Part shown: positions 3,601-44,500 of the stretch, piece after piece
Layout: the number at the start of each line of letters is the position of its first letter
Numbering within the stretch: position 1 is the first letter of the stretch
Assembly (NCBI GenBank): GCA_902728285.1
Contig: CACVBU010000402.1
Span: 603,930-667,929, forward strand
DNA length: 64,000 bases
Reading direction: 5' to 3'
DNA from: Clytia hemisphaerica
Lineage: Eukaryota; Cnidaria; Hydrozoa; Leptothecata; Clytiidae
Notes under the pieces: model-generated
Database searches by the model: none
What the model was told of the DNA's origin: nothing
The model's input: only the letters and a program-made list of their open reading frames with translations
Translations under genes and position numbers: made by a program

Positions 3601-6600
3601 GCTAATCCTCCTTTATATACATATATTATTTATCGTATTATATTTCACATAAGATTTACCCATCAGTCCTTGTGTGTCCAACATTTTTTGCCATTCTTCA
3701 TCAGTTTTAACATCAGCCTGAAGTTTCAAAAGAATTTTGGATTTCATTAAAAAATTCCTACCTTATTACACTTATGTAACTACTCAAGTTATTAATGCAA
3801 AATGGTTTAAATCACATTAATTTTACAACCGTTAAACAAAATTTGAACCAAAAAAGCCAACACCTTAGCAATGGGGTTCTTGCCCAAAGTTGCCCATAAG
3901 GATTTGTACAAATTGTTCTGTACTGTCTACATAAACACGACAAAACAGTGGGCTGTTTATTTTTAGTCTGACAGATCTCATTTTTTCATCAATCATTTGT
4001 GTTATTATTATCATCACTGATCATCAAGTTATAAATCAAAATCTCAAAGAATGAAAAATTTTTCTACCATCCAACAAATGACCACCTAATTTATTTTTTT
4101 AACAGGGATCAAATCAAAAGTTAGCTGTGGCACACAAAATTTAGATGGCACATGAAAATTCAGAGGAAAAATGGACAGTCTAAATTTTGTGAGGGACAGG
4201 TGGAAAAAGTAGCAAATGTAGGCTCCTGCGTTGAAAAAATAGGGATTGTGGGAGCGCAGGACACGTCATTTATTTGGCAGTTCCAGAAAAAAATATTACC
4301 TCTCTGTGGTCGACAGTGTTTTTAGGAATATTTTTTCACTTTCATTTTTTCAGTCTTGAGAAATTTTGAAAAAAGTCACGGAAAGTGCAAAATTTTACTC
4401 ATTGTTTGGTCATCTGTATATCGGAAAACCATAAAATCTGCTCTATTTCCTTTTACTTAAAAATTCTTGAATGTTTTAGGGAAATCTTGAACCGTCAACT
4501 GCTTTAACTTGGGACTATCTGACAAAACATGGGAGGGCAATTCTGCCACCATTTCACTGAACCTCCAAAAACATTTGATTTGACTTAATGAACAGCGTAT
4601 TAAAAAATACACGATTTCTCTTTCCCACTGAGTAGGCTTTTAAATCGAAATATGAAAAATTCCATAGTGGAACACGATGGAGCATTTGACGTCACTTGTG
4701 CGGCAAGTTACACACTCGTTATTTGTTTATCCATTGGGCAATAGGCAGTTAAGCGACAGGTGTTCTCTAATGCTCCAATTGGCGTCCGGTCATTTTAAAT
4801 GGAAACAAAATACCATGAAGGCGGGTAACTTGCATCAGTGGAGGCTAACATGCAAAGCCCTCAAATGAATGACCTGGCTGGTCCTTAAAATAATACAAAG
4901 TTAAATCAAAACAAAAATGGTAGAGTAGAGCTGCGACCGGAGCTGCGCAGTTCATTTGTTCTGAAATTTTGCTTCTTTGATTGGTCAGTCATTTGAGGGC
5001 TATGCATGTTAGCCTCCACTGATGCAAGTTAGCGACTTCCATTCACGGTAGTTAATTGACGCGCTATCAGTGAAAGTTATCGTGACATGTTATGACAGAA
5101 GGTATGATTAATCTTGGTGGAGTTAAACAAACAAATTTGTTGTCAAAGAGATTTAACAGTAGGTGAAAATAAAAGCCTGTTATCAACAGTCCCTGTTTCG
5201 ACTAATCGTCCCAAGTTAGAGCAGTTGACGGAAGTTTCTTTTTGTATGTGTGCAAAAATGCAAAAACAGAAAAAGAAAGAAGATGAACAATTTTACAACA
5301 AACTGACTGAAAAAAAAAATGTACCTGTAGCTCCTTTTTATGATCTCCTTTCTTGAGTACCATATCTTATATTAAGCAATTAATTTCCAAAGAAATAAAA
5401 TTCAAGTTTTGCTGTTCGCAGGACTTTCTCGTTCCCGAGCACACGTTCAAAAATGATCACGCAGCTCATGTCTACCATTTTTAAAAAAGAATGATTTTGG
5501 TTTCTAATTTCCCCGGCAACATGTAAACACAGAGCTTTAAAGAAATTTATTTTGTAAGCACAAAGGTATTGAAAACATGCGATCGCCGAGGGTATGTCCA
5601 AGCCAAAGTTCGAAAATCGACCCTTTGAGAGAATGAATTTCAAAAGAAAAATTCCTTTGAAAGACTATTTTCAGCTGAAAATTACCAGATTTTATAACCC
5701 TTTGAGGGCGTTTGAGGGTGTTTGATAGAGGAGCCCCATTGAGTTTCAAGCCCGAAGGGCTAGAGGTCAATCTCTAACCTTTCTCAGGCAAGAAAAATTG
5801 AAGCCTTAAAATATGCGCCGTATTTTTGATGACGGATTGAATCTAGCAATTCCTTTGTCTTCGAGTGATATATTTTTCGAAATTAAGCGGTAAATTTTAG
5901 TTTCAATCTGTCATTTGTGTAAAAACCAGGCGGGTCGCTCAAGGCCGCGCAACTTTGGTAGGATTTGTTGGCTTCAAATCCTACCAAAGAGATTGACCTC
6001 TAGCCTTCGGCTTGAAACTCAATGAGGAGCCCCCCCCTCCCCAGCGGACCCAAAATTCACGCCATCATGCCAATTTTTTTCGATTTCACGCCATTACGCC
6101 TAGAAAATTTAGTTTTCACGCTCATATTCTCTGGATAAGTTCAGTTTTAGACCACGTTTAGACCGCCATTGGTATGGATAAAATGCCGTTATATAAACTT
6201 TTAATTTTTGCCCACAAATAGGTGTGTGTTTGGTCGTCAATCAGTTCTTTGGCATTCTCATACACGTAAGTCAAGATTATATCATTTTTTCTATCGGAAA
6301 CACCCGAAAGATTTTGAAGGAATTTGACCTCTATTTTTGGATTTTTAGCAATACATTTTAGCAATACACAGTTTTTTAGGTTGTTTCCAATAGGAAAAAT
6401 GACGTAATATTGACTTATACATATCAAAAATTGTTTGACAACTGGTGGGTCACATCAAAGTGCCCTGATTTGATGGCTGAGACGTATATTTGAGTAAATT
6501 GACAAAGCCCACCATGGTTGAAAATTTTTGAATTTTGAAGGGTTCAAAGTGCTATTTTAGGACCCCTTTCAATTCAATTTGAAAAATAATTCATGTAAAA

Positions 6601-8818
6601 ATAATGGAAATCTTTTAAAAGTACAAGTGGCTTTTTTTGGTAAAAACATGAGGGGCCATGCCCCTGGTCTCCGGTTGACGGGACCAATGGGCATTAATTG
6701 TAAATTAGCATGAATAGTTTTCAAAAGGGGAACGAGGAGGCGCAACCATGGTTTGTGCCGACGGAAGAAATTTTCAATTTAATATGGCTACAATCGCCCT
6801 CATTTACTCTTTTTTCCAAAATATGGTTTAAACATCACATGATTTCTTCTGATTTCTTTGATCAATACCAATTTGCTCTAAATTTCACCTCATAATAAAC
6901 CTGTTGCTTCTTGGTATATTTTTCTGAAATAAGGTAAAAATAAGAAACAATCATCAATAACAGATTTGCAATCCCTTATTCTCAAATAAAAACATTGCTT
7001 CATACTGCTTTTACCTTCCAAAAACAACTAAAATCTGGCGGAGGACTGTTTTACAGTCTGCCTAAGCAAAAGCATAATACCATATACTACCGGGCCACTT
7101 AATCGCGCCATCAAGTCTATCAAAAAAAAGCTTTCAGTGGACCCCGGGCTAATAGCATTCGGCTTTATTTTGAAGACAAGCTGGCAACTGCTAAAGACAA
7201 TTGGAAGTAACAAGGATAAATGCCAGATGAATAATGTTTGCACCATTTCTTTTATGTTTTAGAATGAGATCTGTAGGAGGTCCCTCCCATTGAGTTTCAA
7301 GCCCGAAGGGCTAGAGGTCAATCTCTTTGGTAGGATTTGAAGCCAACAAATCCTACCAAAGTTGCGCAGCCTTGAGCGACCCGCCTGGTTTTTACACAAA
7401 TGACAGATTGAAACTAAAATTTACCGCTTAATTTCGAAAAATATATCACTCGAAAACAAAGGAATTGCTAGATTCAATCCGTCATCAAAAATACGGCGCA
7501 TATTTTAAGGCTTCAATTTTTCTTGCCTGAGAAAGGTTAGAGATTGACCTCTAGCCCTTCGGGCTTGAAACTCAATGGTCCCACCATAGTTGGGGCCGAC
7601 CAAGAAAATTTTGAAATTTAATCTCTCTAAATTGGCTAAAGTGGTCATAGAATTACGATTCAAGTAATAATTATAATTTTCACGATCACGCTGAACTGCA
7701 AATTTCACGCCATCACGCCTAAAAAACTCGATTTCACTATCACGCCAGCACTTCATTTTCACGCCATCACGCCGTTTTTTTCAAAATTTCACGCCATCAC
7801 GCCACGAAAAACCCTCCATCACACCATCACGCCAACCGCTGGGGGCGTCATAGAGAAACCAGAAGCGACAAAATCCCAAGGAAATAAAAAAGTTCTCCCA
7901 AAAAATTCTCCGTCTTTGATTTTTGTTTCTCCATGAAATTTATATAAACACTGGATAAACATCAACGAGCTAGATTTTCATCTCCGTCTTTGCTTTGACG
8001 ACTCAAGTTCTATCTCTGTCTGCAGTAGTGCCATTTTGTCCAATCTCCTTCCCTCATTAGAATATCTTTCGTAGCACACTTTGATTGGATTTTTTATTAT
8101 AAAGCAATCGTGCAGTACCCAAATGAGACTGCTAAGCTTTCCTCCAAGAGTCTGCTAATTGAGTGTTGGCCTTCTTTTAAAAATGAAATTGTCCACTAAC
8201 CAGAGGTGTCCACCTTTTATAGTTTTAATCAGAGGTTTTTACTGTAGTTGCTTATTATGTGGTGTCCTATCAAGTTTCGTATCATTATTTTCTAATGTTG
8301 GATGAAAAACTAAAAACCTTTAAACTCCCTTTTAACTTTCGAATGTTAAGATCCATAAAGATTCTTTGATCTTGGCTATTTTTTTCAGGGGGAGACGAGG
8401 AGGTCCCACCAAGTCTATGAGAAGTGGATGTATTATAACATATAACCATGATATGACATACATACAAGATTATGGTGCTCTGAATTACCTTTTCATAAAC
8501 GGTATATTATTTGACAAAGAGACCATCATACCCATTAGTCCGCCCGACCTGTGCACGATTTTATTTTTTTTATAGAACAAAAGTTTAAAGTTTCAAACAT
8601 TTTAGTTTTCATACAGTGCACAGAAAAACTTTGACTCAACCAACATGTAAAATTCTCTTATTTTCTCCTTTATAGTGATAATATTTCAACCTGTAAGAAT
8701 GACAACGACTCAATAAATTTTGACCTTACAGACAAACCATTCTGACTAATTATTTAAGATTCAACAAGGTAAATGAACGTACCTGTATTGCAACAGCTTG
8801 TCCTCTTTTGCCAGCCAT
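641..8818 (-). CDS. Thioredoxin + NDP-kinase fusion protein, NME9/TXNDC6-like (5' part, 8 exons)
   Basis: Exons on the minus strand in coding order: 8783-8818, 3660-3717, 3210-3313, 2894-2965, 2394-2510, 2088-2172, 1721-1771, 641-723. All have AG/GT borders and the phases join without a stop, giving 202 residues before the window ends. The start is the ATG at 8818 (MAGKRGQAVAIQ). Residues 13-130 form a thioredoxin domain with the intact redox motif WCGPC at 39-43 and the later cis-Pro region SEPTFLFYG. An acidic linker (about 131-160) follows, then VAVALIKPDAVQAGL at about 182-195, the opening of a nucleoside diphosphate kinase domain. The order Trx-NDK matches NME8/NME9 and the outer-dynein-arm intermediate chain of sea urchins, so a role in cilia or flagella is expected from the family. 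The NDK catalytic His lies beyond the edge and is unseen. Intron 1 is 5 kb and full of transposons. Confidence 0.9.
4288..5240 (+). repeat. Dispersed repeat, copy 1
   Basis: Stretches of this segment reappear in the same order at 22930-23625. Shared stretches include TTTCACTGAACCTCCAAA, TAGGCTTTTAAATC, TAGTGGAACA and GTCAAAGAGATTTAACAGTA. Copy 1 has about 430 extra bases (roughly 4680-5110) that copy 2 lacks. No terminal repeats or target duplication were found, so the class is unknown. The short open frames inside it are probably chance. Confidence 0.7.
5738..6023 (+). mobile_element. MITE copy A (10-bp TSD, about 38-bp inverted ends)
   Basis: The 286-bp element starts ATTGAGTTTCAAGC and ends with the near inverse, GGCTTGAAACTCAAT being the full-length form. 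It is flanked by perfect 10-bp duplications GAGGAGCCCC at 5728-5737 and 6024-6033. Its interior is the inverse orientation of copy B at 7289-7576. A 9-11 bp duplication with long inverted ends points to the Mutator/MULE group. It sits inside the left terminus of the hAT-like element, so it inserted later. No coding capacity. Confidence 0.85.
7289..7576 (-). mobile_element. MITE copy B of the same family
   Basis: This 288-bp element has clean ends ATTGAGTTTCAAGCCCGAAG and its inverse. It is flanked by GGTCCCTCCC (7279-7288) and GGTCCCACCA (7577-7586), which match at 8 of 10 bases. The interior matches copy A almost base for base in opposite orientation. Internal palindrome: TTTGGTAGGATTTG against CAAATCCTACCAAA. 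The less perfect duplication suggests an insertion older than copy A. Confidence 0.85.
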
Positions 8819-35500: not shown

Positions 35501-38500
35501 CTTAATCAGCATAAAATTTGTGATCGATTGGTATTATGTCTATGTATGTCTATGTATGTCAAGCAAGAGGGCTAAAAAGGGTTGAAAATCTATAATCCGC
35601 CATTATGGAAATTTGTGCCGGATCCAAATAACGCCACACACGTTTTCTGACTCTTCAAGGACTATACTTTCATGATCAAAAGAAAAAATGATTATACGCC
35701 GATGTGCATATGAGACCTAACTCAGCCCCTAGAGCATAGGCCTTTTTCCTGCACATTTTATTTTTGTCTCTGATTTCTGCTAGAAAGTAAAAGGTATGTA
35801 AAAATTAACGGGATGGAGGTACATAAACTTAATTGATAGAGGAAAGAGCAGGGCAGTGTCGGCAGGAAGCCAAAAAGGGTACTTTTTGCAATGTTTTCTC
35901 CAAAAAAAGGCTGTATTGGCACAATTTTAGTGATTTTAAGAGGGGCAGTGTCCAATAAACAAATACTTAAAAGACATAAAAAATTGTCTGTTATCTTCTT
36001 TTTAAAACAAAAAATATTTCAAGTTGTAATTGAAAATTTTCATCCAAATCATTGAGTGTTGCTGGAAAGAGTCAAAAGCTAAAATTAAAAAAGAATTTTT
36101 CAATTGCCACACTGAAAGATGTTTTTCTTTTTCAACAGTTTTATCAAATGAGTTTTGAAGTGTAGTAGAATTTAAACTGGTGTATAATCTAGAATGGAAT
36201 AGAGTGTTACACAATTTGAAGATTTTCTGTTAAATTTTGGTTTATTTTGAGCTTAGTAGTTTTTTTAACTTACTTTTCAGTTAATTCAGTTCTGATTAGC
36301 CATTTTTTTATAACAGCAGGCTTGGAATTTAGAAAAAACTCAACAGGAACATTTTAATTTTTGGTTATCATTTTTTGGATAACCAAATAATCCATCACTT
36401 TGCAGTCTGTCAAATATCACTGCAAACTTCCCCTTAAACAGTGAACTAGTGACTCGGAGGTTGCCATTTTGAAAAAAAGCTCTAATTTTCCAAATAAATA
36501 ACAAAAAGACTACCGAGTTTAAAAAACTAATTAAAAATATGAACCCAACATGTAAAACAGAAATACAATACCCCTTTTTAAGAAACACCATGTGCCACAA
36601 CCATTTTTATCTGAATAGAATCTGGCAGTCTTTTCTGTTCCACCTAAAAGCAATACACAATTTTTGATCTTGTTAGGCAAAACATGCTGTATTCTATGTC
36701 TTAACGTTATGCCAGTTAGGATGTCATGTCAAATAATCAAAAACTCCAGGATCAAAACAATGATATGAAAAAAAAGAACATTCTAAGTGAGATTCAGGTT
36801 GTTAGGTGACAACACTACCAGTAACTGTAAAATTAGACATTGTTTATAACTATTATTATATATCCACACAGTATTTACCTACTAAAAAGTCAAAAATTGA
36901 GTACTTTGACCTCTCCTTTTAGGAAACCTTATGTTATATAAGAGATGTTTTATTTATTTGGTTTGGAAATCTTTTTGAAAAGAATCAAGGCTTTACAGGA
37001 AACTTCCTTAGATAATGATATAACTTGGGCTGCCGGGGTTTCCCCTTTTTCTAAGGGAAAGAAACAGATGATATTATTTAGCGAGAACAGAACAACAACT
37101 CAGTCTTTATTCTTGTTCACACCATTTTACATACAAAAAAGGAGCTGTGAACAACGTACATTAATATGCGTATATTTATTTTCTTGCAGCCCCTTCCCTC
37201 TCCTTGTACACAAGGATGTTTTTGATAAGCAACCCCTTAATAATGGGTAATAACTGTAACCGTTAAACCACAGAATAGTTCCTGCTGTAGTGAGACCCAT
37301 TTTCCAGAATAAACCCTTTATGCACCTTTTTTAAATAAACAGCTCATGATATAAGACAGTGCTTTTTTGTCTGTAGACACATAGGAAACATCTAGATAGC
37401 TAGATGTTTGTCCTAATGATAACCTTTTGATATGATAGGAAATTAACATTAATATTTTTTCTTCTTTTCTAGATTTTTCATTTAAATTTTATTGTTTGTA
37501 ATTGTAAGAACAATTAATTATTATATGCTTTTTATGATTTTTTTTATCAATCAAGTATATATCTTTTCCAGGTATCTCAAGAATACATCTTGTAGTGGAG
37601 TCTACTAACATAATAATTCTAGGGACAGGGTACTAAGCAAGTGAGGGGTCTGAGGCCAAAATTTAGCAAATTTGTTGGATCATTAGCTGCTCTGATAGAG
37701 GCTCTATATAATTATAACCTAGCCCTTACTTTCTGATTTTTCCAGTCATATGTAGTTCTCAAACTTGGTGTCTGCATTATTCTGAAAAATTCAAAAAGAA
37801 ATGTAACAAAATTTCTATAGAGAAGGGGTGGTTCCCGAGAAAAGGGGGAGAAACACCTAGGGTAGGGACAGTTTTTCTTTGGACTAGGGGAATAGTGACC
37901 TACTTTCAAACTATGACACTTTCTTTTCATTGTTCTGCCGTTTTACAGCCAAAGGAGGTAAGTTACAAATTTTCAAAAAAAATTTTTATTTCACAAAACC
38001 ACATTTTTTCAAGTGCTCTTTCCAGCTACAGACTAGCCTGGGAATCCATGCTATGATTTCTTCTTTGATAAATTGATGGCGAAATGTATAGCATGGTACG
38101 GGCTGAGAGTTTGAATTTCTCAGATCCTAATAACGGTTGAAAACATAGCCAATCAAATTTTGTTATTCTTTTACTGGTCACACTTTCTTAGAGAAAGCGC
38201 AATTTCCGAAATTTGGTTTTTATTTTAGTAAGTGAGGACAGCCCTAAATTCGAATTTCCCACTGTAAAAAATGTGAGTCCAATATTGGACTCACAGCTCG
38301 AACCCGTCTTGTGTACATCAAATTATAAAAAAAAACACGACGGGTCTCCTGTCTAGCTACAGACATATTGATAAAAAATTTTCATTGAAAAGTGCTGATT
38401 TTAACATGGTAACATATTTAGAAGAATAGATGTATGATGATGATTAAAATAATATTTGATGATGTAAAAGGATGTATTAGTTCCGCTGCTGAGGTCGAAA

Positions 38501-41500
38501 AAAGTGGCTAGAAAGTGATTTTCGTGACACATCTCTTAGAACTAACTTTTTTTTGTGGAAACTCGCGAATTACTATGTCCTGATTGCAAAATCGAAAAGT
38601 TTCCGCGATTTTAGCGTGCAAGTGTCGAGAAAATCGGCTTAAAAGTTGACTTTTATCGATTTAATCGATTTTAATCGATTTTCATGAATTTAACAGTTTC
38701 TTGGTCATGAATTTTTACTTTTATGATGCATTTTGCTTGTAAATACTAGTAGCTATCAAATTATTACACTAACAATAAATTTAAGCGATGAAAATGTAGG
38801 AAAAACGGCTAAAATCGATAAAATCATCGATAAAGCATCGAATGTCAACTGAAAAACTTCGAATGAGTCTATAGACTTCAAAAATTGTCTGATTTGCCTG
38901 AAATTTTGCACACTTGGCCCTTGGGTGAATATCTGCAGATCTAAGTTTTCAATTTTTTGAAAATTTGGATTTTTGGGGTCTGGGGAGGAGTTTTTTGTCA
39001 AAACGAGGCTGAAACTTAGGGGCGGCCTGTAGACTTCAACAATGGTCAAATTTTGCTGAAATTTTGCACACTTGGCCTTTGGGTGAATATCTACAGATAT
39101 AATTTTTCATGGAAAATCGACCTAGAAAATCATATTATCGAGTTTATCGGTTTATCCTTGTGGCATAGATAGATTTCTTTACCGGTAAAGGCTTGACTAG
39201 GAATATCACGCCAGGTCTTGAAAAAATATTCCATTATATTCTCCTTGTATTTGCCGGACTTTAAAAACTTTTTCCATTAACGAGTTTTTTTCGAACCACC
39301 ATATATATTGATAACAGCTGCACCAGCACTGCCCCTTTTGAGACGCTCAGCTTTCATCAGGATATCTGCCACAAACTACATCGACTCGAATACAGCCAAA
39401 CTTTGATGACGGTTTTAAAGATGGTTGTAGCAAGATTTTCGAAGGTATCTGGTACATTTTTCAGCACTTGCAGCATGACCATTGCGTCAATGACCAAACA
39501 ACTTTTTTCAGGAATGGATGCAATCAACTTTTGACTTCGTCTCGAAGATTTCGAGTAACTTTGATTTCTGAGTTTTGACCATGCTCCCGTCGTACAATGA
39601 CAATGGTGAAGAGAAGGGGCGTAGAGTATATTTCAGCACTTCTTGCATATCAATATCCCGACTTTTGGCAAGTAGACAAGTTTTGCAAAAAGATCTTTGG
39701 TCAATTTGATTGCAACAATTTCGTTTTTTGTGTTCTTCACGTTCATTGTTTGGGACTGAGTACCAAAGGTTTTCAATTCGGTTTTCTTCATCGTTCGGTA
39801 AACGTCAGCCTCCTCACTTAACAAATTGTCTAAGTAGTCGTTAAGAGCAATTGAAGACGACGAGAATCACTTGGAAACGTTTTCATTACTTGGTACTTCG
39901 CTATCAGAGGATTTGCCCTCTCTCAATCATTTTGTTTGTCAATTGTACGGTCACAAAGAAACAGACGACCTTAATCGGGTTCATTTTACCATTTTCAAAA
40001 GTGGAAAATTTTCCGAGGAATCGCTCCGACCTACTGACGATTCTCTCTTGTTGCATACTCGACGTGCTAATTATCAAGTGTACATATGGAGGAGCTCTGT
40101 CACCCCAATGAGATTACCTTCTGCAAGTGACCACGGATGGGAGGTGAGAAAAAGTGGGCTGGAAATCAAATGGATATCACTACCCATCGCCCCCGATAGC
40201 ATCTTATCAATTCATCAGCAGTGGATGTAAATCAGGTTGTTCCATAAATCGCTGTTCCTGCAAAAAAGCCTCTTTTAAATGTAGTGATTTATGCAAATGT
40301 GAGGGTTGTGAAAATGGTAATGGCGAGACTACTGTGGAAGATGACACAGAGGAAGTAGATTACAATCTAGAAATGTGTGATAGTGGTGATGATTCAAATG
40401 ATAGTGATACTGAAATAGAATCTGACAGTGACAATGATGATGCACTAGTTTCAGAGTGGGAAACGTCTTTTAAATATTTGAATTTACATATAGAAATAAG
40501 TACTTAGAAGGCACAAAAAAGCTTAAAATTAACTCCTTTCTACGACCCAATTAAGGTTTGAGCAATTTTATCATAAAAGGGGCTCCCCCAGGGGCTGGCG
40601 TGACACGTGAATGAGCCTATTTTCTGACGTGAATACGTGAAATGGACTTTTTTAGCACGTGAATACGTGAATTGAGATATCAGCGTGAACGTGAAAATAT
40701 GAAAATAAGATTTTTCCACCGTGAATTCGTGAATCGAGATTTTTAGCGTGAACGTGAAAAGCAAATCATTGTCTAAAACACAAGGAAACTCTAAAAATCT
40801 ATCTAAGACCTAAATACCTAAATCTAAAAGTTTTTTTGCTTGCTTTGCTCGCATAGTCTTGGATTAACTTATTGTCATATTAACTTAGTGAAGTCATTCA
40901 AAATAATCAAAAATTTATAACATTAAAATTCTCAAAGATATCTAAACAAATTTTTTTATTTTTTCGAGGGCGTATTTTTTCATTTTTAACGACAAATTTT
41001 GTGATGCAAATACTGCATCCAACGAGAGTGTCTTTAGCCAAAACAAAAGAGATCCAACGAGAGTGTCTTTAGCCAAAACAAAAGAGTCTAGAGAAAAATT
41101 TTCTCCGTCAGCGTTTAATGATGGTCGTTTTCCGTAGTTACTTATATTGTTACTACAATGCAATACACAAAATGATACCGCGTTAACTTAGAGACTTAGA
41201 GGGTTTTTGCACCCTCAATAATTTGTAAGGTAGGTAGTTCAGAGTAGTTCTAAAACATCTTCTAAAAAATAATTCTCATAGATGATGCATGCACATGATG
41301 CGTTTTCAAATCTAGGCATTCTAAATTTTAAAAGCTTTTTCTTTAGCAAAACTCTTGGAACACGGAACCGGGTACGGCAGATACGTCGCTCGCCGTACCA
41401 GATTTTTGCCAACAAATGGTCAGTGTTAAATAAAATCAAAGATTTTCAAAATAAATTGTGTACGACCAAAAAAGGCATACTTGACTAACAATAGCGTATT

Positions 41501-44500
41501 AAGGCCGTTTTTCAGTCATCAAAGACGAGATTTTCCGAATAAATTTCGCGCTCGTGTTGTTGTTTTCCATACATTAGCAGGGTTCCCAGCGGTCAGGGAA
41601 AACCTGGAAAACCTGGAAAAAGTAGCTTTTTTGGAAAAAGTCAGAGAAAACCTGGAAAAGTCAGGGAAAATTTAGAAAAAGTAGTGAAAGTCAGGGAAAA
41701 GTCAGGGAACTTTTTTTGGAATAGTCAGGGAAAGTCAGGGAATTCCAAAATCAGTCAACTCCAAATTACAAATGATAATTGAAATGATATTATCCTTTTC
41801 ATCTTTCATTTTTGCCGGTATTTTATCAGCCAGTAAGTATTGGTGTATTGTAAGCTCTGTGATATTTATTTAGTCCACAGTTCTGACAGTTTTGTTTTAC
41901 TTATCTCTTAATTAGTTTCTTTTATTTCGTTTTAGTGATAGAAAAATGACCCGGGGGGGGGGGGCACTCAAGGTAAATGACCTACCAGACGTTCAGACCT
42001 TAAGGGTAGGTTTTTCATAGTTCAGGAAGGGTAAGGGTAGGAAATTACAAAACTGCACTGAACTGGACTGTAAGGGTAGGAAATTGTGATAAAAGGCCAA
42101 TTTTTTGGTAAAATTGGCACAAAAATTTTCGCCCTTACGGGCGAGAAGAGAAATTTGGAAAAAGTGCACTGTAAGGGTATGATTTTTCATGGAATTTCAC
42201 TGCACTCTAAGGGTCCGATTTTAGAAGCCAAATTTTGAAGAAAATCTTTTTAGAAAGAGGAAAGAGGAAAGTTTTCATTCAAATGATAGCACGTTCATCT
42301 TTACATACATACGACGGTACCCCTTTTGTATCCTGGTTTTAGTGGGGTTTTAGTAGACTCGCTTTTAAAAAAATATATGTATTGAAATTGTGTTAAGTTT
42401 TATTTTTTTTATCTCAATATGGTGTTTTTCAAAATACTGTTGGGGCGAACGGTCAGGGAAAAAGGCCCAATATTCTGCTCTGGTCAGGGAAAAAGGCACC
42501 TTGGTCAATCTAAAAGTCATGGAAAAAGGTCTTTTTTTTGGAAAAAGTCAGGGAAAAATATTTCTCTTAAGTGCTGGGAACCCTGATTAGTGAAGTTAAG
42601 TAAATCGGTAAAATCGCGAAGACGAACGAAAACTTAACAGGCTAGTGAGTTTCAACCAATCAAATTTAGTATTTTCACTATTTTATTACATTTGCCGTCT
42701 GTCGTCGTGACTATCCTGATATGCTTAACCTCAGTATTTTCTTCCATGAGATAGGGGTCCAATATTGGAATTTGCGTCCTCTGCTTGTACTACCGCTCCA
42801 CCTGAAGCTTGTGTTTATACGGCTTCTCAAACCATGATTGGAGATTAAAAAAGACTTCTTACGGGTCTGCGAGAAAGAAAATCCCACATCAAAAGCACCT
42901 TACGCCAGAAGGGTAGTTCTTTGAAACTTTGGCGCGGCAGACCTAACAAATTGCTTTATTAAATCTCAAATAGCTGTAAAAGATGCCTTAAAAGGTCGAC
43001 GCTATCGAGAATTAGGTCACAAACTGCAGAAAACTTCATATAGGCGAAAATGTTTGGCATAAGCCAAAGATATAAAAGAAAAATTGGCGCGTGAACGTGA
43101 ATATGGTTTTTTTTGCGCGTGAATACGTGAATTGGCAAAATTTTGTGTGTGAATATGTGAATTGGCAAAATTTTGTGCGTGAATACGTGAATTGAGGGTC
43201 GACTGGGGAGCCTCATAAAAAGAGTTTTATTCGTGAAATAATAGGTAAAATCGATACTTTATCGATAAATTATTGATAAATTAACGATATTTCGATTTTT
43301 TTCGATCTAGAATTTGATCTAGAATTTTTATTATATTATCATTTTCTTAGACATTGATGTGGTGAAGAAAAATAAGCTGTTATAATGTATTTTGACGACC
43401 TGAAGTACACCTTTTATACGTAAAAATTGACATTACCCGATAAACTCGATAATATGATTTTCTAGGTCGATTTTACGAATTTTCAAAAAATGAAAAATTA
43501 TATCTGTAGATATTCACCCAAAGGCCAAGTGTGCAAAATTTCAGCAAAATTTGACCATTGTTGAAGTCTATAGGCCACCCCTAAGTTTCAGCCTCGTTTT
43601 GACAAAAAACTCCTCCCCAGACCCCAAAAATCCAAATTTCCAAAAAATTGAAAACTTAGATCTACAGATATTTACCCAAGGGACAAGTGTGCAAAATTTC
43701 AGGCAAATCAGACAATTTTTGAAGTCTATAGACTCATTCGAAGTTTTTCAGTTGACATTCGATGCTTTATCGATGATTTTATCGATTTTAGCCGTTTTTC
43801 CTACATTTTCATCGCTTAAATTTATTGTTAGTGTAATAATTTTATAGCTACTAGTATTTACAAGCAAAATGCATCATAAAAGTGAAAATTCATGACCTAG
43901 AAACTGTTAAATTCATGAAAATCGATTAAAATCGATTAAATCGATAAAAGTCAACTTTTAAGCCGATTTTCTCGACACTTGCACGCTAAAATCGCGGAAA
44001 CTTTTTGATTTTGCAATCAGGACATAGTAATTCGCGAGTTTCCACAAAAAAAAGTTAGTTCTAAGAGATGTGTCACGAAACGAAACGATTTTCGACCTCA
44101 TCAGCAGCGGGACTATATGTTCGATTTTACGTTAAAAAGGTAAGTTACAATTCTAAGGCTCATTTTAATGCTATAAATTGTATAAAGGAGGTATGTCACA
44201 ATATTTTAAGATTGAATTAAGCAAATCATTTCAAATTAAGTGAAAAAAAAATTAGGGTCATTTTGAACAAAATAAAAAAAAAAGAATCTAGTAGCGTTTT
44301 TAGATCTTCTAAAACTAACCAAAATGCGTTTCGTTAAATAACTGAAAATTTTGAAAAAAAAGAAAATGTAACTTACCTCTTTTGGTTGTAAAACTTCTGC
44401 TACCATTTTTCATAAAATAACAACAATTTTTACAAGGCATAATCAATATTTGGGAATAACAAAGAATCAAAAAGTGTCAATGGAACAAAAACTCTTGATG

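Follow-up and report, generated by a model that had tools for sequence, protein, structure and literature searches.

A defective derivative of a probable AcademX-type DNA transposon in Clytia hemisphaerica, split head-to-head by inverted duplication and deletion

In the Mu killer element of maize, a segment of a transposase gene is present as an inverted duplication within a transposon derivative, and this derivative silences its parent. Among Academ DNA transposons, the AcademX lineage was reportedly named by Kojima in 2020. According to PMC10045372, AcademX elements encode a nuclease and generate 3- or 4-bp target-site duplications, and AcademH elements combine a helicase with 9- or 10-bp duplications; PMC10294476 names a 17-superfamily study with an Academ DDE set. 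The transposon described below resembles AcademX in its transposase-like and nuclease-like parts, its terminal inverted repeats and its 3-bp duplication, although neither the transposase half nor the nuclease core is present in the copy under study. AcademH belongs to the same superfamily by name, but no helicase was found here and the duplication is 3 bp long instead of 9 or 10. The nuclease-like part follows the acidic-motif order of the FEN1, EXO1 and XPG nucleases and its GCD...GKGKA stretch aligns to EXO1, whereas here it is fused to a transposase-like part and the likeness is too weak for HMMER searches against PDB. As in Mu killer, a transposon derivative contains a transposase-gene segment duplicated in inverted orientation; in the present case the rearranged form has itself multiplied.

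The element occupies positions 38478-44115 of the window (the whole 64,000-nucleotide stretch analysed), between direct repeats of TAT at 38475-38477 and 44116-44118. The initial annotation had located a feature at 38480-44112, which was real and well placed, and which these borders refine. We conclude that the element very likely derives from an AcademX-type cut-and-paste DNA transposon; it is defective and presumably non-autonomous, and has undergone a secondary inverted duplication and deletion. Its features are as follows.

38475-38477: target-site duplication, left copy (TAT)
38478-39150: left arm (terminal inverted repeat), with end TAGTTCCGCTGCTGAGGTCGAAAA
39151-39845, minus strand: fragment A, which covers the front of the nuclease-like region with the VIDAM block, frames broken, matching L053:8402-9115
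39845-39846: junction of the inverted duplication, TTAAGAGC/AATTGAAG, the same in all 8 instances compared
39846-40507, plus strand: fragment B', inverted copy of the gene's 3' part (HTRRANYQVYIWRSS, cysteine-rich tail)
40473-40568, plus strand: beginning of the gene's 3' flank, inverted copy (L053:7111-7016), resuming at 43213 past the nested insertions
40579-43212: older nested insertion, with ends GGGGCTCCCC and GGGGAGCC and an 8-bp duplication, TCATAAAA, at 40571-40578 and 43213-43220
41578-42585: younger nested insertion, with ends CAGGGTTCCCAGC and GCTGGGAACCCTG and a 5-bp duplication, ATTAG, at 41573-41577 and 42586-42590
43213-43474, plus strand: remainder of the gene's 3' flank, inverted copy (L053:7001-6741)
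43436-44115: right arm (terminal inverted repeat), with end CGACCTCATCAGCAGCGGGACTA
44116-44118: target-site duplication, right copy (TAT)

The inverted arms of about 670 bp reported initially are present: positions 38520-39110 and 43490-44080 are 98% complementary across 591 nt, and there is an extra inner pair of 43 nt. The right end of the element has a 3-bp insertion, and the last 39 bp of the left arm (39112-39150) correspond to the 3' flank of the ancestral gene (L053:6740-6778). Each arm also contains a tandem pair of units of about 100 bp (38854-39109; 43485-43746), 80-82% alike and spaced by 158 bp. The left end reads TAGTCCCGCTGCTGAG in all 20 arm-bearing loci fetched (TAGTTCCGC in the window). 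A reading of the terminal TA as a 2-bp duplication was dropped: when TA is counted as part of the element, identical 3-bp flanks are found in 12 of the 15 other copies with both ends found (L035, L036, L048, L049, L050 and the window, where the pattern caught one end only, are excluded from this count), as against 5 of 210 mismatched pairings. Matching 3-bp flanks are absent from the other three copies, and none of the 15 has identical flanks of 4 bp. The duplication, TAT in the window, is thus of the 3- or 4-bp length expected for AcademX. Each copy with both ends has one end of each of two kinds, and this also applies to the C432 copy discussed below.

Searching the 417 Mb genome with the terminal 24-mer (up to 3 mismatches) returned 644 ends (324 forward, 320 reverse), and the control returned none. 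Some of these ends come from short copies, such as two like ends facing each other at C187:399689-400030. The left arm has at least 90 matches in the genome, about 41 of them near-full arms and the remainder arm sub-repeats or pieces, with 40 of 1139 candidates scored. Given the genome-wide arm matches, and 644 ends against none in the control, the feature is not due to chance. The arms correspond to a transposon's terminal inverted repeats.

Between the arms, the first half of the gene lies on the minus strand (VIDAMVMLQVLKNVP) and the second half on the plus strand (HTRRANYQVYIWRSS), as initially described, and the strand switch, first put near 39835, falls at 39845/39846. No second copy of the gene family was found in the window. 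In relatives both halves share a strand, as the initial annotation had said. The parts are ordered on one strand in the frames of six relatives (L051, L052, L054, L055, L056 and L057), among which L051 and L054 stop short of the cysteine-rich tail, and L052 and L057 carry the gene in more than one frame. A seventh, L058 (1-4401), combines all parts in a single frame of 1466 codons whose 5' end is open. The L058 contig is filed under a Planctomycetota MAG; it is probably eukaryotic and a contaminant of that bin. The order in the one-strand relatives is a DDE-transposase-like part, an XPG/flap-nuclease-like part and the cysteine-rich tail, the conserved transposase-like part lying ahead of the nuclease-like one. 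Counting fragments, the second half of the gene has at least 124 matches in the genome, the first half at least 23 and the transposase-like part of L058 at least 86. No relatives were detected in the viral contigs scanned with alignments A1 and A2. In C882, the 3' end of the gene and its flank occur twice as a direct repeat (L053:1235-2926 and 5883-7815, 93-98% identity); the flank of this repeat is unlike the arms and is common to C897.

A resemblance of the VIDAM block to flap-nuclease folds had been guessed at, and the region does align to EXO1, with modest statistics. In a six-row alignment, the acids of the nuclease-like part are invariant at D (IDxMA), D (VxDxY), E, EEAD and PDTD, and GCD is present in five of the six rows, the sixth ending before it. 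When a profile of seven members was compared with an EXO1 profile built from two sequences only, most motifs were in register (score 28.6, E 0.0079), with an hhalign probability of only 5%; none of 200 column shuffles reached this score (maximum 28.4), and the reversed profile scored 18.0. HMMER searches against PDB with L051, the six-member alignment A1 and L058 yielded nothing relevant, and single-sequence structure prediction for L058 residues 961-1370 gave a mean pLDDT of 36, too low to be of use. A nuclease-like identity is therefore suggested, with modest evidence, by motif order and profile comparison and not by structure. The CXC-type cysteine motif noted initially does match Pfam MSL2-CXC (E=0.0045) and TCR (E=0.0095) in the window, but weakly, both matches lying below the curated cut-offs. 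TCR/CXC matches in L034 and L052 are likewise below cut-off and the motif does not qualify as Tesmin/TSO1-like CXC; in the six A1 members and L058, no TCR/CXC Pfam match was found at E<=1.

The FAYDxxNYxRY motif may resemble Academ. The initial annotation had considered that the transposon might be unclassified, which it probably is not: its putative transposase-nuclease fusion and its 3-bp duplication match the description of AcademX in PMC10045372, and it would fit this lineage of Academ. A DDE-nuclease transposon of another or unnamed superfamily is unlikely. Such an assignment would agree with the Pfam results, in which DUF6589, at a score under the cut-off (best E 7.8e-05, two of six members), is all that the transposase-like part matches, and with the fact that the AcademX name is drawn from the fusion and the duplication length, not from a match to a reference protein of Academ. 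However, a nuclease combined with a 3- or 4-bp duplication is what PMC10045372 gives for AcademX, and no helicase domain was found in Pfam scans of L058 and L051.

The strongest evidence that ends and gene belong together comes from C432. In this copy, a 5' end at 1533272 (79% identity over 236 bp to the C897 end) is followed by a transposase-like exon at 1537272-1537823, which contains three stops, then by the nuclease-like part and tail, reaching 1540626 on the same strand, and by a 3' end at 1541094, which shares 85% identity with the left end of the window element across 96 bp (E 7.5e-28) and is followed by CCA in L052. Terminal inverted repeats thus flank a one-strand gene, as expected for AcademX. 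Because the whole gene sits between two such ends, the arms are the transposon's own, which agrees with the initial proposal that the family encodes the mobilising protein of a DNA transposon with such ends; most family members elsewhere have no such arms assigned among the 40 to 60 arm candidates scored. A like 5' end also lies upstream of the transposase-like part in C700 (3.2 kb) and C897 (9.3 kb). C897 was considered as a second complete copy and rejected: its 5' end fits, and no arm was found near the gene's 3' side (106700-108100).

Under Pack-type capture, the arms would belong to an unrelated transposon which acquired part of the gene family, and the gene would be irrelevant to mobility. 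Two observations go in this direction. A recognisable family gene is missing from 14 of the 20 arm-bearing loci read (arm matches of 300 bp or more considered), whose arms are about 90% identical, and in the closest one-strand genes (C882 and C897), the 3' flank runs into other sequence at the place where the window group has the arm's outer 632 bp. Nevertheless, we regard capture as quite improbable, as C432 holds a whole ordered gene between such ends and a 5' end precedes the gene in both C700 and C897, and as we estimate that, with 644 ends in 417 Mb, a correctly oriented end would lie within 10 kb of a given gene with a chance of about 1%. Taken to the letter, the gene-less loci speak in part against the tie between family and arms that the initial annotation had put forward, but C432 keeps its main idea alive. 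L037-L050 form a second arm-bearing group without the gene; the interiors compared are common to the group and include extra arm sub-repeats. Pfam returned no match for four long frames taken from two elements of this gene-less kind.

The rearrangement was mapped onto the one-strand gene of L053 (C882). In all seven gene-bearing copies read (the window and L031-L036), L053 position ~9151 is joined head-to-head to ~7852, L033 holding two of the identical junctions; in the window, fragment B' matches L053:7852-7231 over 39846-40468. Genome-wide, the junction is spanned at nine loci, namely C285 (window), C207, C332, C403, C584, C594, C628, C630 (twice) and C802 (over a shorter match), C628 and C802 being known from the junction match. 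C882 and C897 keep the two sides of the junction apart, as in the one-strand gene. Two copies, L034 and L035, retain the forward 3' half besides the inverted copy, with the same junction, and the event was therefore an inverted duplication. The resulting inverted repeat measures 1.4 kb in L035 (95% identity), and L036 is cut off on its other side. In the window, a deletion at 39150/39151 has removed L053:6779-8401, which comprises the nuclease core together with the forward 3' half; exactly the same deletion is found in C207 and C630, and C332 has a larger one. The head-to-head layout is thus secondary, produced by inverted duplication and then deletion, and not by the inversion within the element that was first suggested. 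The other initial suggestion, that the element is normally built this way, holds for one sub-lineage (the nine loci) but not for the one-strand relatives.

The split form has transposed since the deletion, which is shared by copies at separate sites with their own flanks. Among the split group, L032 and L033 have their own 3-bp duplications (GTA and TTA, respectively), and L031 has none. Identity between the two arms of a copy ranges from 92.2 to 97.4% in the five gene-bearing copies aligned. As the transposase half and the nuclease core are missing, no intact protein remains and the window copy cannot encode one: it is a derivative and not an autonomous member.

A simple inversion inside one element, with no duplication, might be proposed from the window copy, which taken alone has one of each half, but it is contradicted for this lineage by L034 and L035, where the 3' half occurs in both orientations with the same junction, and is extremely unlikely. 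A transposon that normally has the two halves as distinct, divergently arranged genes, as their head-to-head order with one junction at nine loci might suggest, is scarcely credible in view of the single 1466-codon frame of L058, the one-strand order in L051, L052 and L054-L057, and the forward 3' half also kept in L034 and L035.

The nested insertions add to the history of the split form. The older one is common to L031-L033, and its site is empty in L035, from which it follows that it entered before the split form spread. The younger one is missing from these three sister copies. Repeats of ACGTGAAT lie close to both ends of the older insertion, and the interior of the younger one is rich in GTCAGGGAAAA.

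Inverted duplication and deletion of a probable AcademX-type element give the following sequence of events. The complete form carries one gene on one strand, encoding the transposase-like part, the nuclease-like part and the cysteine-rich tail, between TAGTCCCGCTGCTGAGGTCGAAAA-type ends, a structure shown by the ends and exons of C432 and the whole frame of L058. Its protein would cut at the ends and insert the element with cuts staggered by 3 bp, and flaps might be trimmed by the nuclease. In an ancestor lacking the transposase half, the gene's 3' half, its flank and the arm became attached, in inverted orientation, to the gene's middle, giving a near-palindrome with very long arms, as seen in L034 and L035. 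Later loss of the forward 3' half and nuclease core left the two head-to-head fragments observed in the window, C207 and C630. The split form then reached new sites, presumably through the enzyme of intact relatives.

By analogy with Mu killer, the palindromic sub-lineage (L034/L035 type) might act as a mobile hairpin locus that silences its parent transposon, although we consider this very unlikely. Its long arms take in the 3' half of the transposon's gene, and read-through transcription would produce double-stranded RNA matching the one-strand relatives (~88-95% in C882), and the element itself would be carried to new sites by the parent transposon's enzyme. If this reading were true, an element could silence its parent transposon while being moved by the parent's enzyme.

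The element in the window has decayed and most likely belongs to a transposon kind already known, and its rearrangement has left an unusually legible history. A large gene family of this genome, placed only weakly by Pfam, is linked here to defined transposon ends with a duplication of 3 bp, and such genes can be annotated as transposon genes and not as host genes. Finally, the exact junctions show how inverted duplication of a transposon's 3' half made a long-armed, defective and still multiplying family.
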